NCBI GenBank assembly: GCA_017560125.1
Contig: JAFYOS010000027.1
Location: 1-64,000, forward strand
Direction of reading: 5' to 3'
Length of the DNA: 64,000 nucleotides
From: Bacteroidaceae bacterium
GTDB lineage: Bacteria > Bacteroidota > Bacteroidia > Bacteroidales > Bacteroidaceae
The number at the start of each line of letters is the position of its first letter. The stretch's first letter is position 1. The notes beneath the pieces were generated by a model that worked only from the letters and a program-made list of their open reading frames with translations, was not told the origin of the DNA and ran no database searches. Positions 9,776 to 59,088 of the stretch are shown piece after piece. Made by a program: the position numbers and the translations under genes.

Positions 9776-10279
9776 ATGACAAAAACAGAATTCAAGACAA
9801 GATACATGCCACTATATAAGGAGCTCTACCGGGTGGCACTGCACATGCTCGGCGACAGCAACGAGGCCGAGGATGCTGTGCAGAATTTGTACTTGAAACT
9901 GTGGGAACGGCGCGATGCTTTAGGCGGCATAGAGAGTGACGAGGCCTACTGTCGCCGACTGCTGAAAAATATCTGCATCGACCGATGGCGCGAGATGCGA
10001 CGGCACGAACAGCAGAGCCTCGACGAAGAAGATGTGCCCGACCTTTGCGACGATGCGTATAGCGAGGATGAAATGAACGACAAGCAGAGCTTCCTGAGAG
10101 CCTTCCTCGCGCGCTTGCACGAACGACAACGGCGCATTTTTGTGCTGAGGATGCAAGGCAGTACATACGACGAGATGGAACTGCTTACCGGGCAATCCGC
10201 CACGAGCTTGCGAATGACAATCTCGCGTCTGAAGAGAGAATTGATAGATAGTTACAAACGAAAGAAAGGTTGCGAATGA
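9776..10279 (+). CDS. ECF-type RNA polymerase sigma factor
   Basis: The 167-residue product has sigma region 2 (residues about 10-75: LYRVALHMLGDSNEAEDAVQNLYLKLWE, then CRRLLKNICIDRWRE) and region 4 (about 115-160: LHERQRRIFVLRMQG..., ATSLRMTISRLKREL, the helix-turn-helix). The acidic linker between them is typical of ECF factors. It overlaps the next gene by ATGA, and that gene encodes a single-pass membrane protein that probably acts as anti-sigma factor. I cannot predict the target promoters. Confidence 0.9.
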   Translation: MTKTEFKTRYMPLYKELYRVALHMLGDSNEAEDAVQNLYLKLWERRDALGGIESDEAYCRRLLKNICIDRWREMRRHEQQSLDEEDVPDLCDDAYSEDEMNDKQSFLRAFLARLHERQRRIFVLRMQGSTYDEMELLTGQSATSLRMTISRLKRELIDSYKRKKGCE

Positions 10280-10800
10280 TGGATGCAAGAGAAATGATAG
10301 ACAGATACCTCGACGAGCGTATGAGCCGCGCCGAGGAGCAGGAATTTTTCCGTTACCTGCGTTCGAGCGATTTCCCCGAGGAACTGCAAGATGAGCGGGA
10401 ACTGATATTGCGAATGGCTGCGATGGAGAGCGACCAGGAGCCCCCTGCTGGCATGGAGGAGCGTCTTTCGGCAATGATAGACAGCCTCGAAGAGGAGAGC
10501 GACACCCCCGCAAAGAGAGTGCTTCGACTGGAACTGCGCCACATGTGGCGCGCGGCGGCCATCGTAGCGTTGGTGGCAGCAACCGGGCTTGCCATTGTGC
10601 AGCATGGCAGTGACCGTGACGATGCATTCATCGCCGCCCGCGACAAGGATACATATGCTACGCCCGAAGAGGCATTGCCCCATGCCAAAACCATACTGCG
10701 CGACCTTGTCGCCGTCACCAACAGCACCCGCAATAGTGCGGTCGAGGTTGGCAACGACATAAAAAAACTGAGTATAATAATTAAACGAATAGAGCAATGA
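10276..10800 (+). CDS. Probable membrane-bound anti-sigma factor
   Basis: The start is ATG 10276, overlapping the sigma stop as ATGA; a TTG two codons upstream is less likely. The 174-residue product has an acidic cytosolic helical part (MIDRYLDERMSRAEEQEFFRYL...) resembling anti-sigma N-termini, a basic stretch, one hydrophobic segment (AAAIVALVAATGLAIV, about residues 93-108) and a short outer C-terminus of about 65 residues. Position, coupling and topology support an anti-sigma role; no family signature confirms it. Its own stop again overlaps the next start as ATGA. Confidence 0.65.
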   Translation: MMDAREMIDRYLDERMSRAEEQEFFRYLRSSDFPEELQDERELILRMAAMESDQEPPAGMEERLSAMIDSLEEESDTPAKRVLRLELRHMWRAAAIVALVAATGLAIVQHGSDRDDAFIAARDKDTYATPEEALPHAKTILRDLVAVTNSTRNSAVEVGNDIKKLSIIIKRIEQ

Positions 10801-11318
10801 AACGACTGATAACAATATTCTTTGCACTGCTGCTGATGTTCGCGGCAGCAACCTCGGCGCCCGCCGCAAGCAGGGATGGCAATAGTAACAGCAAGGTTGA
10901 GAGGTTCGTTCAAGGCCTTGCCCGCGACTATTCGTCGCATGTGGAGTACTCCTATATATCGATGAATATGCTCAGGAGCCTCTTTTCCATGATGCTCGGC
11001 GATGATGGTAATGAGCTTGCAAAAAACCTGAAAAGGATGAAGTACATCCGTAAATATGCTTCGAGCGACAGCGAGGGCTACAGGATGCTGAAAAAAGAGA
11101 TGCAGCCCTTCCTCTCGAACAAAGATAAGGTGATGGGCATGGAGCTTGTCGTCGTCAACAAAGAGGGCGCGGAGGCTACTACAATATACAGTAGCAAAGA
11201 CGGCCTGCTGATAATCACCGACGAGAATGGCACCACCCTGACGGTGGTATTTATAGCAGGGCTGTCGATGGATGTTTTCAACGCCATGCAGGAGAACGGA
11301 TTAGAATTGGATTTTTAA
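10797..11318 (+). CDS. Secreted DUF4252 protein
   Basis: The 173-residue product has a cleavable signal peptide (MKRLITIFFALLLMFAAATSAPA) and the DUF4252 pattern: an N-terminal helical part, a long KKEM...NKDKVMGMELVVVNKEG strand region, then LIITDENG and TTLTVVFIAG. DUF4252 proteins are common in Bacteroidota next to ECF sigma genes and have no known function. The ATGA overlap with the anti-sigma-like gene implies coupled translation. It probably resides in the periplasm. Confidence 0.75.
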   Translation: MKRLITIFFALLLMFAAATSAPAASRDGNSNSKVERFVQGLARDYSSHVEYSYISMNMLRSLFSMMLGDDGNELAKNLKRMKYIRKYASSDSEGYRMLKKEMQPFLSNKDKVMGMELVVVNKEGAEATTIYSSKDGLLIITDENGTTLTVVFIAGLSMDVFNAMQENGLELDF

Positions 11319-11333
11319 AAAATAGATACGAAA

Positions 11334-12608
11334 ATGAGAAATATACTAATCGCCATAGTGGCACTATTTACATTTGTCGGCGCACAAGCAGCCGAGCCGC
11401 GAGCAAACAAGGGAAAGGTCAATAAGATAATAAAAGCCATAAAGGAGCTCGATGGCAGGCATGTAAGCGTGAAGGAGTATGATGCCGACTCCGTAGCCGA
11501 GGATGTAAAGAAGCAGTTGTACGAACAGTTCGACGAAAAGAAAGTAGATAAAGTGTGGGCGGCAAACAAGATAACACTGAGCAAGAGCATCCTTGCCGAA
11601 TCGCAGGACGAAGAGGGCTACAACAGCATGCGCGCCTTTGCTGCGACGCTGGGCCTGGGGGACTGCGACAAGCTTGCCGGCATTCCCTTGACGCTGTATA
11701 ACAATAACGACAGCGTAGGCATCGCCTTTTTCAGTGACAAGAACAACACGCTTGTTTTTTCCGACAGTCTGCTGAGCAGAAAATACACCATCGTATATGC
11801 CGATGACGACATCGCGGGTAAATCGCAGAGCATGCTCCAGCAGTTGGTGAACGACGAGCTCGAATCCATCACCAGCGGAGGCCTTATAAAGAAGTTTACC
11901 ACCGACAAGGGAAAACCGGTAGTCTTTGGAGCTGCCGATGATGAAGGGGAGGCTCCCGGCACCGATTTCCAAAGATTCATCCGTCGTTTCGAAAATTTGG
12001 ACGGGAGTGTACATCGCTATGCATGGCGTCCCGACGACGCTGCATTGCATTGCGCACTTACATTAAAAGATACCACCCACTATTCGACCAAAGTGAATGC
12101 CGGTTTCAAAAAATCGAAATACAGCTACGAGAGTTACGCCCCGTCGATACACTATTTCGAAGGCACCGGCGAGAAGGGATACTGGGAATTGTCGGGAAAC
12201 ACCGCCTTTTATCTGCTTTCGAGACAGTATGCGGGAACAAGGATCAGCGAATGGGGTAATCTGGAATGCATCTGGACGGCAGACACATTGGGAATGCGCG
12301 TGTGCCAATATCGGGGCATGAAAAATGTAACCGTCTATCTGGTGGATAATTCAGAGAAAGGGCAATGTGCCGCGCTCGTAGTGAACGGAGGGCTGGATAC
12401 ATTCAAAGCCTTCCTGAACAGCTACACGCTGAACGAAGAAGAGAGTGTTGCAGACAAATACAATGTGATATTTACGCCTATTGGGCACAAGACGCAGGCT
12501 ATCAAAGAGGAGGTCTATGGCAAAAAGAGTGGCTTGCACCTAAAATTCCCCATACTCGACGAGGCATACGAAAAAGGGCTGCTGCCATACTATAAACGCT
12601 CGGAGTAA
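11334..12608 (+). CDS. Secreted protein of unknown function, end of sigma operon
   Basis: The 424-residue product has a signal peptide (MRNILIAIVALFTFVGAQA). The first 150 residues look like a second, diverged DUF4252-type segment (GKVNKIIKAIKELDGRHVSVKEY..., a SMRAFAATLGLGDCDKLAGIPLTLY strand region). The remainder, including GSVHRYAWRPDDAALHCALTLKD, matches nothing I recognise. It lies 15 bases after the DUF4252 gene. The operon ends in a hairpin that doubles as a possible regulatory element of the next gene. Confidence 0.65.
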   Translation: MRNILIAIVALFTFVGAQAAEPRANKGKVNKIIKAIKELDGRHVSVKEYDADSVAEDVKKQLYEQFDEKKVDKVWAANKITLSKSILAESQDEEGYNSMRAFAATLGLGDCDKLAGIPLTLYNNNDSVGIAFFSDKNNTLVFSDSLLSRKYTIVYADDDIAGKSQSMLQQLVNDELESITSGGLIKKFTTDKGKPVVFGAADDEGEAPGTDFQRFIRRFENLDGSVHRYAWRPDDAALHCALTLKDTTHYSTKVNAGFKKSKYSYESYAPSIHYFEGTGEKGYWELSGNTAFYLLSRQYAGTRISEWGNLECIWTADTLGMRVCQYRGMKNVTVYLVDNSEKGQCAALVVNGGLDTFKAFLNSYTLNEEESVADKYNVIFTPIGHKTQAIKEEVYGKKSGLHLKFPILDEAYEKGLLPYYKRSE

Positions 12609-12657
12609 GCCGTCGGCCAATAGTAACATTGTTGTGTGGCGGTTTTTCCTAAAAACT

Positions 12658-12698
12658 ATAGGGAAATCCCTCTGAAATATAGGGGATTTCCCTTTTTT
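12658..12698 (+). terminator. Hairpin ending the sigma operon, overlapping a paired ATAGGG element
   Basis: GGGAAATCCC (12661-12670) can pair with GGGATTTCCC (12683-12692), and TTTTTT follows, so it can terminate transcription. Each arm is also self-complementary, and the two ATAGGG units are 21 bp apart, as in the element at 55954-55990. It may therefore also serve as a protein-binding site for the gene at 12747. Confidence 0.65.
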
Positions 12699-12715
12699 CT
12701 GATAATCGCATTATC

Positions 12716-12723
12716 TACATTTG
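12716..12723 (+). promoter_or_regulatory. -7 box before the DUF4476 gene
   Basis: TACATTTG fits the consensus. Only T residues stand where the -33 box should be. The second ATAGGG unit begins 36-37 bp upstream, suggesting an activator-dependent promoter. Confidence 0.65.
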
Positions 12724-12746: not shown

Positions 12747-13190
12747 ATGAAACATTTCAAGTACATTATGATTGCGGCAGTCGTGGCTGTGAGCCTTCTT
12801 AGTCTGCCGGCTGCGGCTGTCGAGCCCGATAAGAAACCTAAGCAGCAGTTCGAACATCGCGACAGAGGCCTCAAGGAACGAAAGCACATGCATCCGCATG
12901 CCATGCGCGACAAGGATTTCTCTCTGGTGCTCAATGTGGTTAAAAAGGCGTCATTCGACGACCGAAAAATAGATGTCATGCGAGTAGCCTGCATAGGCAG
13001 TTATTTCAGCAGCGAGCAGTGTGCCCGTCTGCTGTCGCTCTTGTCGTTCGACGACAACAAGGTGGAGGCGCTCGAGGTGATAGCTCCGCGTTTGGTCGAG
13101 TCGGATAATGCCGAGGATATCCTCAAGAAATTTTCTTTCTCGTCGAGCAGGGATAAGGCCGTAGGCATATTGCTTCGCCGTCAGAAATAG
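12747..13190 (+). CDS. Secreted DUF4476 protein
   Basis: The 147-residue product has a signal peptide (to about residue 25), a basic His-rich linker (EHRDRGLKERKHMHPHAMR) and one DUF4476 domain: helices containing FDDRKIDVMRVA, YFSSEQCARLLSLLSFDDNKVEALEVI and FSFSSSRDKAVGIL. The family is common in Bacteroidota and has no known biochemical function. It is a single gene with its own promoter. It shares an upstream element with the large gene at 56044, so both may answer to the same regulator. Confidence 0.8.
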   Translation: MKHFKYIMIAAVVAVSLLSLPAAAVEPDKKPKQQFEHRDRGLKERKHMHPHAMRDKDFSLVLNVVKKASFDDRKIDVMRVACIGSYFSSEQCARLLSLLSFDDNKVEALEVIAPRLVESDNAEDILKKFSFSSSRDKAVGILLRRQK

Positions 13191-55953: not shown

Positions 55954-55990
55954 ATAGGGATTTCCCCCTAAATTATAGGGAATTTCCCCC
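55954..55990 (+). promoter_or_regulatory. Paired ATAGGG...TTTCCC element before the gene at 56044
   Basis: ATAGGGATTTCCCCC (55954-55968) and ATAGGGAATTTCCCCC (55975-55990) are direct repeats 21 bp apart; each is internally palindromic. No T run follows, so it is not a terminator. The second unit starts 38 bp before the -7 box. A closely matching element precedes the gene at 12747. Confidence 0.65.
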
Positions 55991-56012: not shown

Positions 56013-56020
56013 TATATTTG
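56013..56020 (+). promoter_or_regulatory. -7 box before the MG2-like gene
   Basis: TATATTTG; the position of the -33 box reads CCGAT, so no TTG is present. The paired element ends where the -33 box would be. Confidence 0.65.
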
Positions 56021-56043: not shown

Positions 56044-59000
56044 ATGCTACGCAAAATACTATCTATCGCACTTCTGTTAATGGTCGCTCTTTTCGCTCAC
56101 GCCGACGAAAAGGATCTTGACACCCTTGTGCTGAAGAGCCTTACTGTCAGCAGCATGCTGCCGCAGGAGCGCGTATATTTGCACTTCGACAACAGCGGTT
56201 ACTATCTTGGCGAAACAATGTGGTTCAAGGCATACGTTACTGGTAGCTATGGCCCGGTCATTGCCGGCCCGCAAAGCCGCGTGCTCTATGTGGAGCTTTG
56301 CGCCCCCGAGGGCTACGTGGTGGAAACGAAAAAATACAAGCTCGACGACAAAGGATGCTGTCATGGCGAATTTGACCTTAAACCCTCGCTGCTCTCCGGC
56401 TACTACGAAGTGCGAGCCTATACACGCTATATGCTCAATTGGGGCGACGATGCAATCTTTAGTCGCGTGTTTCCTGTATATGACCAAGTGAACGGCGACA
56501 ACTACGACTTTATGAACATGCTCGACCGCAAGCGTGGAATCTACTATCGTGGCAAATGGGTCACGCAAGAGGGCAAGGACCCCACGCTTGCATTCTATCC
56601 CGAGGGCGGACATCTTGTCGCAGGCATTGAAACGAAAATCGCATTCGAGCTACGCGACAAGAGCGGAAAACCACTGAACGACACTATAGCCATTTTTGCC
56701 GATAAGGAACTGTTGACTACAACGGCTGCCACTCACGATGGCAGGGGTTTTTTTATGTTCACTCCACGGGCAGATATAAAATATCGCGCCGAGGTCAAGC
56801 ATGGCAAAAAGGAGTATAAATTTGAATTGCCGGCAATAGAGAACAATGGAGCAACCGTTGCCGTAAGACACGATGGCGACAGCGTGCGGTTCGCGGTAAC
56901 ATGCAACATGCCTGCCCAAGCAACATCTATTGTAATCCTCAACCGCAATCAGGCATATGTATATAAAAAGGATATAACAACCCTTGCCATGCACCGCGAC
57001 AAGCTGCGCGAGGGCGTGAATCGCTTTCTGCTGCTCACAGCCGACGGCGCCCCTCTGTGCGAGAGGATGTTCTTTGTAAAACACTCCTCACCGCAACAAG
57101 GCGACCTTGTTCCTGTTAGGCTGAAAGCGGAAATTAACGGACAAAATGCCGAGGAAAAAGTTTTTTTCGCTCCTTATAGCAGACTGACGGTAAAAATCAG
57201 CAGCGAGGATGGTTCGCCGCTTCCTTATCATGGCAGTTTTTCGGTGGCGGTAACAGACGAAGAGTACAGCGTAATAACAAGCTACTCGAACAATATCTAC
57301 ACAGATATGTTGCTCTCTTCCGAGCTCAAAGGATACATTCCTGCCGCATCGCAATACTTCGACGATGACAGCGAGAATACCCGCAACAACCTCGATCTGC
57401 TGATGCTCACCAACGGCTGGACATCGTACGATTGGAACATGCTTGCCAATATCGACAGCTGTTTCTCCATAAAGCATCCGATAGAATACGGCATACAGAT
57501 AAAGGGTTGCTTTATGAAAAAGATACCTGTAAAGAAACTCGGTAAGATGGGCACATTCAGGATAATACCTCTAAAAAACATAAAGGTGAACTTCGATTTT
57601 GCATATAATGGCAAAATGGTAAGTTGTTATGAGTTCAAGACAGAGGCAGGGGGAAAATTCCAGTTGGAACTGGATGACTTCTATGGTAAAAAGTACGCAG
57701 CACTCACTCCCGTGCTTACCGGAAATCAGATACAGGATACTATTTTCAAATTCTCTATAGACAAATACTTTTCGCCCAAATTCCGTCTGTACGACTATTG
57801 GCAATGGAATAGGGGCTACAGGCCGGGAAACAAAAAGGCAGGAAACGAGACAATTATAGATGTATTCGGAAGAAACAAGCTCGAAGAGGTGAATATAATA
57901 GCCAAGCCGCATACGGGCCGTGCAACCCGTCCTCCCAAGAGCGAAATTCGCCTCGATTTTATGGACGAGTGGGAGTATGCGCAGGATGTAAGCTATGTAT
58001 ATACACCTCACGATAACTGGATGATGAGCAAGGCCGGAGAAACAAACGACATCTTTGAGGATGTCAATCTTGCCGATGAAATAGAGAACAGGATATATGC
58101 CCAATACGATTATATATCAGAGAGCAACTATATTTCCGAAGAGTATAATCACATGGCGTTGACTACTTCGACAGATAACTGGCGCGTGTATGGCTGGGAA
58201 GGCCCTCGCCACCATGCTTACGAAAATGTACTTACAGCATACGAAGTGTTGCAGAGCGCCTTTTGGCGGCACAACTACAATTGGGCATATTGGGTGAAGA
58301 TGATAGTGCCGCAGGGGGAGTACAGCAGCGAAGAGATTCCGCTCGAGGACAAAGAGTACATAAAAGGTAAAACCCCCATAAAAATGATGGACTTTAAGGA
58401 GATAGTAATCCGCAGCGACGAGCCTACATTGAAGCAGTTCAGGAATGAACGATGGTACGGCCAAAGGAGCGCATTTCTCAATAAAGGGAAATTCCGTTCA
58501 TTCTACTTCGGCTTTCTGCTCCGCAGCTCCATCACCCCGCAGGACGACAAAGAGATAGACGGTTATCCCGGAAATACTGTGTTTCGCAACCAGATGGCAA
58601 GAGGGGGGTTAGTGAAGTTGAAAACGGGCTTGAGAGGCGCTGCCGGCTCTGATACCCAAAAACGCAAGAACGTTAATGGAGTTGATGTGATAGACATGGA
58701 AACTGGTGTAAAATCGTATAACACAGATTTGGTGTTCCAGCAAAAAATGTATCCCGAACATCCAAATTTTGTCGCTTGCTTCATCCCTAACAAAGGAAAA
58801 GAAAAATTACCGGGGGGACTAGTTCCCGAAATAGCCGTAAAGAGTGTACGCCGCTACACCTGCGTGATGGGATACAACAAAAGCAAAAAATTCTATTCGC
58901 CTAATTACTCAATAAAGAAGCCGGACGAAAAAACAAAGGATTACCGTCGTACGTTACAATGGATTCCCAATGCCGAAGTGGGTGACGATGGATGTATCAC

Positions 59001-59088
59001 ATTCAAATTGAACAACAATGGTAAGGAAAGTATCCTGTTGCTGAATGTTGCGGGAATGCATAAAGACAAATTTTATACCATTGAATAA
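56044..59088 (+). CDS. Large secreted MG2 (macroglobulin-like) domain protein
   Basis: The 1014-residue product has a signal peptide (MLRKILSIALLLMVALFAHA). The segment QERVYLHFDNSGYYLGETMW and what follows is the MG2-like opening common to a Bacteroidota family distantly related to alpha-2-macroglobulin. It continues with FYPEGGHLVAGIETKIAFELRDKSGKPL (a second Ig-like domain) and further beta domains. No thioester motif or TonB plug is seen. The C-terminal half, including DVFGRNKLEEVNIIAKPHTGRA, resembles linker regions between receptor plug-like pieces, but no barrel follows. Function unknown. Its promoter shares an element with the DUF4476 gene. Confidence 0.75.
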   Translation: MLRKILSIALLLMVALFAHADEKDLDTLVLKSLTVSSMLPQERVYLHFDNSGYYLGETMWFKAYVTGSYGPVIAGPQSRVLYVELCAPEGYVVETKKYKLDDKGCCHGEFDLKPSLLSGYYEVRAYTRYMLNWGDDAIFSRVFPVYDQVNGDNYDFMNMLDRKRGIYYRGKWVTQEGKDPTLAFYPEGGHLVAGIETKIAFELRDKSGKPLNDTIAIFADKELLTTTAATHDGRGFFMFTPRADIKYRAEVKHGKKEYKFELPAIENNGATVAVRHDGDSVRFAVTCNMPAQATSIVILNRNQAYVYKKDITTLAMHRDKLREGVNRFLLLTADGAPLCERMFFVKHSSPQQGDLVPVRLKAEINGQNAEEKVFFAPYSRLTVKISSEDGSPLPYHGSFSVAVTDEEYSVITSYSNNIYTDMLLSSELKGYIPAASQYFDDDSENTRNNLDLLMLTNGWTSYDWNMLANIDSCFSIKHPIEYGIQIKGCFMKKIPVKKLGKMGTFRIIPLKNIKVNFDFAYNGKMVSCYEFKTEAGGKFQLELDDFYGKKYAALTPVLTGNQIQDTIFKFSIDKYFSPKFRLYDYWQWNRGYRPGNKKAGNETIIDVFGRNKLEEVNIIAKPHTGRATRPPKSEIRLDFMDEWEYAQDVSYVYTPHDNWMMSKAGETNDIFEDVNLADEIENRIYAQYDYISESNYISEEYNHMALTTSTDNWRVYGWEGPRHHAYENVLTAYEVLQSAFWRHNYNWAYWVKMIVPQGEYSSEEIPLEDKEYIKGKTPIKMMDFKEIVIRSDEPTLKQFRNERWYGQRSAFLNKGKFRSFYFGFLLRSSITPQDDKEIDGYPGNTVFRNQMARGGLVKLKTGLRGAAGSDTQKRKNVNGVDVIDMETGVKSYNTDLVFQQKMYPEHPNFVACFIPNKGKEKLPGGLVPEIAVKSVRRYTCVMGYNKSKKFYSPNYSIKKPDEKTKDYRRTLQWIPNAEVGDDGCITFKLNNNGKESILLLNVAGMHKDKFYTIE

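Follow-up and report, generated by a model that had tools for sequence, protein, structure and literature searches.

Tandem 14-bp dyads at a fixed promoter position upstream of genes for putative secreted proteins in the Bacteroidaceae

We describe a pair of 14-bp dyads of the form TAGGGA-WW-TCCCTA, repeated with a period of mostly 21 or 22 bp at a near-constant distance upstream of a −7 box, which recurs in the genus of the source genome and across the Bacteroidaceae, mainly in front of genes whose products carry signal-like N-termini. We consider it probable, at roughly 80%, that this element serves as operator for a single conserved transcriptional activator, and that the activator governs an envelope regulon which may also include small RNAs. 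The regulatory element is apparently undescribed, no description having been found in a partial literature search.

The paired element and its promoter

The window, namely the whole stretch of 64,000 nucleotides analysed, contains two copies of the element, hereafter pairs A and B. Profile matches refer to R1, a sequence-only profile derived from 25 sites of 12 genomes, which contains the −7 box and whose E-values are rough owing to a shortened calibration. The features are as follows:

12642..12656, + strand: possible partial third unit upstream of pair A, TTTTTCCTAAAAACT; weak, within the profile match 12642-12671 (E = 2.8e-4, site in the training set)
12658..12671, + strand: unit 1 of pair A, ATAGGGAAATCCCT
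12679..12692, + strand: unit 2 of pair A, ATAGGGGATTTCCC
12716..12723, + strand: predicted −7 box of the pair A promoter, TACATTTG; the profile match ends at 12723
12747..13190, + strand: gene for a DUF4476 secreted protein, 147 aa (Pfam PF14771, E = 1.2e-23)
55954..55967, + strand: unit 1 of pair B, ATAGGGATTTCCCC
55975..55988, + strand: unit 2 of pair B, ATAGGGAATTTCCC
56013..56020, + strand: predicted −7 box of the pair B promoter, TATATTTG
56044..59088, + strand: gene for a large secreted MG2-like protein, 1014 aa (MG2 match under the Pfam cut-off, 23.5 vs 32.8 bits); one of six own-genome paralogues with a pair

The first-pass annotation of this DNA had placed ATAGGG units at 12658, 12679, 55954 and 55975, 21 bp apart within both pairs and each passing via an A/T core into CCC, with the second unit starting 37-38 bp before a TAnnTTTG box. 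These observations hold, the run after the A/T core being CC(C): the distances are 37 bp to the box at 12716-12723 and 38 bp to that at 56013-56020, or 36 and 37 when counted from TAGG instead of ATAGGG. On the same strand just upstream of the DUF4476 gene (9776-12608) lie genes for an ECF sigma factor, an unknown 176-aa ORF, a DUF4252 protein and an unknown 424-aa ORF.

The pair is not a product of chance. Single units at one mismatch are weakly enriched in the window (7 matches vs 2.26 expected, a number reached by 5 of 100 shuffles), and pairs at up to three mismatches number 3 where 0.25 are expected; pairs A and B are the two that match exactly. The window has two occurrences of the pattern TAGG-N6-CC...TAGG at 21/22 bp, each followed by the box at the proper spacing. 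Within 143,460 bases of own-genome DNA, which were fetched around known sites and hence are not a random sample of that genome, we counted 7 pairs, 6 of them with the box, against none in the reversed sequence; in 100 two-base-block shuffles the number of pairs averaged 0.33 and did not exceed 3, and none of these pairs was accompanied by the box. Over the whole own genome, the exact one-and-a-half-unit pattern has 5 matches vs 0 in the reversed sequence, and the TAGGG pair at up to one mismatch has 10 vs 0, nine of the ten being promoter sites. At up to three mismatches, signal and reversed control are alike (28 and 24 matches), and the pattern alone therefore cannot pick out weaker sites.

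For the anatomy of the element, 153 sites were collected from the best matches rather than from all of them, including the 25 training sites and a few duplicates present in two genomes; six low scorers were dropped. The unit is the 14-bp dyad TAGGGA-WW-TCCCTA in the 147 sites that passed the score (147/153). TAGG hardly varies in either unit. The right arm is weaker than the left, most so in unit 2. The period is 22 bp in 103 sites, 21 bp in 43 and 23 bp in one; the 21-bp period is thus a lineage feature, 22 bp being commoner in the collected sites. In 131/147 sites the second TAGG is followed, 36-38 nt on, by the start of a TAnnTT(T/C)G box, partly by construction, as R1 holds the box; in a smaller set, TAnnTTTG stands at a fixed place downstream in 24 of 28 promoters. 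If TAnnTTTG is centred at −7 (PMC7366714), the dyads would be centred near −41 and −62/−63, positions that suit a class II activator plus a second dimer.

The canonical Bacteroides sigma-ABfr promoter is described in the same source as a −33 TTTG and a −7 TAnnTTTG (PMC7366714). Our promoters resemble it in the fixed placing of the −7 box, but differ in that the pair, at about −41 and −62/−63, lies outside the core promoter. Its outer unit falls outside the −50 to +1 window which that work had searched (PMC7366714). A TTG near −33 was found 18-25 nt 5′ of the box in 56/131 cases. The earlier statement that the −33 element is missing is correct for both window promoters, neither of which has a TTG at that distance; those 56 promoters prevent its extension into a general rule. 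The closest published motif found is PM2 of B. thetaiotaomicron, which is centred at −10 and −30, carries TGTT near −10 and is described as non-canonical (PMC7366714, PMC12596196). PM2 is likewise described as near-palindromic and tied to a gene set, whereas our element lies upstream of a canonical −7 box; the comparison covers description and position.

Six feoAB-type promoters (L043, L138, L151, L155, L156 and L167) show a long inverted repeat around unit 2, e.g. CCCCCTGCAACG...CGTTGCAGGGGG; another G-rich unit, the third, follows unit 2 at about 19 bp.

Recurrence in the genome, the genus and the family

A search of the own genome (G000; 98.5% complete, estimated 6.4% contaminated) made without the −7 box returned nine pairs at up to one mismatch. 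Six precede MG2-like paralogues and, sharing paralogues of one gene, are not independent; the others lie one each before the DUF4476 gene, a gene for a His-rich protein upstream of feoAB, and a gene for a VDDLYFVP protein (457 aa, no Pfam match). TAnnTTTG stands 36-37 nt past the second TAGG in eight of the nine, and at 28 nt in the ninth. The congener G020 contains five pairs, also found without the box, which follows at 37-38 nt in all five; they precede DUF4476, VDD and MG2-like genes, plus two places without a near ORF.

The DUF4476 gene itself was found in 21/44 genus genomes, and a pair scoring at least 20 lies upstream of it in 16 of these 21 orthologues; among shuffles of the same upstream stretches, at least 19 was attained in 17/420, and at least 20 was reached by a shuffle in three of the 21 stretches. 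R1 has a best match at E ≤ 0.001 in 39/44 genus genomes, including 27 of the 32 without a training site, and no match at this threshold in five congeners (G018, G021, G022, G045 and G058). At E ≤ 1 all 44 match, which is nearly expected from chance alone.

Across the family, R1 matches at E ≤ 0.01 in 92/121 genomes and 24/30 genera, where chance would yield about one genome in 121, E-values being rough; 29/121 genomes have no match at this threshold. Outside the own genus, the figures are 85/114 genomes and 23/29 genera, none of them in training. The exact pattern occurs in 6 of 393 genomes of the order, the own one included. The matches in the other five were not counted, since those of G072, G195 and G286 resemble tandem arrays and those of G216 and G376 coding sequence.

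Three further observations concern individual sites. The C9:304 pair is preceded, at a distance of about 90 bp, by a second, TAGGAATATTCCT-type pair at G000:C9:360-426 (L021, L038), which has a TAnnTTTG of its own, in the manner of tandem promoters. Several pairs of G020 and G041 (L047, L051, L131, L134, L135) appear to drive a repeated stretch of similar sequence with no near ORF. An identical 68-bp site and downstream start is present in two genome bins, L130 (G000:C36:20462) and L150 (G054:C3:30334), and one contig may therefore be a contaminant.

Target genes

At 134/147 sites, a first ORF with a minimum length of 60 aa begins 55-330 nt downstream. By a crude hydropathy rule, 130/134 of the first genes are signal-like, compared with 124/261 control ORFs, these being all remaining ORFs of 200 aa or more from the same stretches, spurious ones included. 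The first-pass annotation had proposed an envelope regulon of two or more genes; the set of secreted or envelope genes now appears far larger than two, given the nine own-genome pairs, the 92/121 family genomes and the 130/134 signal-like targets.

Single-linkage clustering places the 134 first genes in 25 sequence clusters, among which at least 49 genes are VDDxYFVP-like and 15 LTDKM-like. This diversity bears on whether the likeness of the promoters reflects nothing but common descent by duplication, with no shared regulator. Paralogues do lie behind six of the nine own-genome pairs; however, the 25 clusters, and the conservation of the pair while the surrounding DNA differs, make such an origin barely credible.

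Pfam families above cut-off among the targets are SIMPL, the M48 peptidase and DUF1232. BamE falls twice just under its cut-off (22.5 and 22.9 vs 23.2 bits), once together with DUF4476, and DUF4890 and DUF5683 lie well under theirs. The same families are found under the element in different genera, e.g. DUF4476, which is found in the own genus and also in G490, there as a fusion with a BamE-like domain. The gene following several VDD genes is one that we take to be OmpP1/FadL-like. The LTDKM proteins share a conserved L-x-x-x-Q stretch which, we presume, recalls Spy/CpxP; their Pfam search gave no match, and their profile yielded weak matches only against solved structures, the best (E = 0.013) in a low-complexity part. 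The DUF4476 profile returned nothing at E ≤ 1 against solved structures; the domain is reportedly named in a study on spiralian animals.

Six sites without a near ORF are followed by a hairpin and then T-rich sequence, with predicted transcripts of 138-186 nt. Searched against Rfam, these six non-coding targets gave one sub-threshold match (L213), to FopS (RF04319; 43.4 vs 56 bits). FopS RNAs are described as induced by bile salts in B. thetaiotaomicron (PMC11697453). The L213 match begins well inside the predicted transcript, in which it differs from FopS, and the accessible part of PMC11697453 names no upstream operator. These predicted transcripts are at most suggestive of a small-RNA arm of the regulon.

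In three loci (L036:4967-8635, L155 and L167) the operon under the element encodes a His-rich small protein, a fused FeoA-FeoB, a hemerythrin-domain protein and a GerE regulator; the three loci, those with sufficient fetched sequence, agree in this order.

Candidate regulators and the proposed model

The first-pass annotation had likened the pair to sites of LytTR-type regulators such as AgrA, which would here point to the lone multi-TM LytTR protein. The period of the direct repeats and their position fit AgrA-type sites, in which repeats spaced by 21-22 bp directly precede the promoter; the own genome has exactly one LytTR, and LytTR was found in 42/44 congeners. Our units are dyads, however, and a LytTR match at E ≤ 0.001 is absent from element-positive G517 (99% complete, 6 element matches), G487 (96%, element match at E = 1.9e-7), and G448 and G451 (single weak element matches). 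In element-rich G431 the single LytTR found is weak (3.1e-4), and by eye no pair is seen upstream of the own LytTR gene. With four element-positive family genomes lacking a LytTR match, the model fails as a common explanation, and we judge it highly improbable; given assemblies 77-99% complete, LytTR is excluded as the common regulator. The own LytTR protein (L041:5640-6518) is multi-TM and without receiver, and its gene is flanked by what we presume to be a purN-like gene on one side and an OmpP1/FadL-like gene on the other, near groEL.

Dyads could instead be bound by a GerE/NarL-type regulator, the candidate being the GerE protein (PF00196, E = 5e-17) encoded downstream of the His-rich, feoAB and hemerythrin genes and itself under the element. 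Its operon order is conserved in the three loci with fetched DNA long enough (L036, L155, L167), and tandem dyads near −41/−63 resemble NarL-family promoters. Full-length relatives occur in some genera only, however, the listed matches in many element-rich genomes being to the C-terminal domain alone, and the feoAB-operon query has no match in element-positive G439, G463, G495, G497, G529 and G543, although a one-protein query may miss distant GerE proteins. We regard this candidate as quite unlikely.

Somewhat less unlikely, though still doubtful, is an AraC/XylS-type activator on two direct repeats, in which each unit would comprise the A and B box of one monomer. Such a monomer-per-unit mode may be suggested by the weaker right arms, above all in unit 2. 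Direct repeats at 21 bp, with the inner copy over the −35 region and the left arm most conserved, match the AraC/XylS architecture. In the own genome, some 30 bp separate the candidate gene (HTH_18, E = 4e-14) from the VDD-gene pair that lies downstream of it; an adjacent AraC gene is present in G000, G020 and G041. Against it, monomers would not need the dyad symmetry of unit 1, and close orthologues in the sample are confined to the genus; outside, the best match has 31% identity (E = 1.4e-27), and element-positive G448, G487 and G497 have none, in a test of the VDD-adjacent protein only. As specific proteins, the GerE protein of the feoAB operon and the AraC protein next to the VDD gene are both excluded as the common regulator; another GerE or AraC protein, a regulator of the Crp/FNR or Lrp/AsnC type, or one of a new type may fill this role.

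One conserved activator is our preferred reading. A dimer probably fills each 14-bp dyad TAGGGA-WW-TCCCTA, the 21-22 bp period placing the two units on one helix face. The inner unit near −41 would abut or cover the −33 region, with the outer near −62/−63, and the activator would replace or help a weak −33 contact, recruiting sigma-ABfr polymerase to TAnnTTTG. The first-pass claim that one dimeric activator controls both window genes stands as regards a shared operator-like element at a fixed promoter position, whereas the dimer, protein binding itself and, from the position of the element, activation are what we infer.

The targets would be mostly secreted or lipoprotein envelope genes plus a few non-coding transcripts. 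The proposed targets comprise the genes for VDDxYFVP proteins beside OmpP1/FadL-like ones, DUF4476, BamE-like, SIMPL, M48 protease, LTDKM-type and MG2-like proteins, and the His-rich protein upstream of feoAB. As targets are mostly secreted proteins or lipoproteins, the most likely function of the regulon is in envelope homeostasis or stress, although this role, like the signal that would trigger it, is put forward conditionally. The sigma-E, Cpx and Rcs systems of enterobacteria likewise have an M48 protease, BamE-like and small periplasmic proteins and possibly small RNAs as targets, but belong to another phylum with another operator and promoter, and the stress role of our regulon would be by analogy.

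The sensing of envelope damage in gut Bacteroidaceae seems to be little understood. It is possible, at somewhat under even odds, that the element marks a family-wide envelope stress response of the Bacteroidaceae, a counterpart of sigma-E/Cpx/Rcs in which a regulator from a class with no known link to such a role would act on tandem dyads to switch on dozens of envelope proteins and a small-RNA arm. Being conserved and fixed in position, the putative operator provides a ready list of targets, mostly genes of unknown function, together with a bait for the regulator, and would give a first functional context to the DUF4476, VDDxYFVP and LTDKM families.
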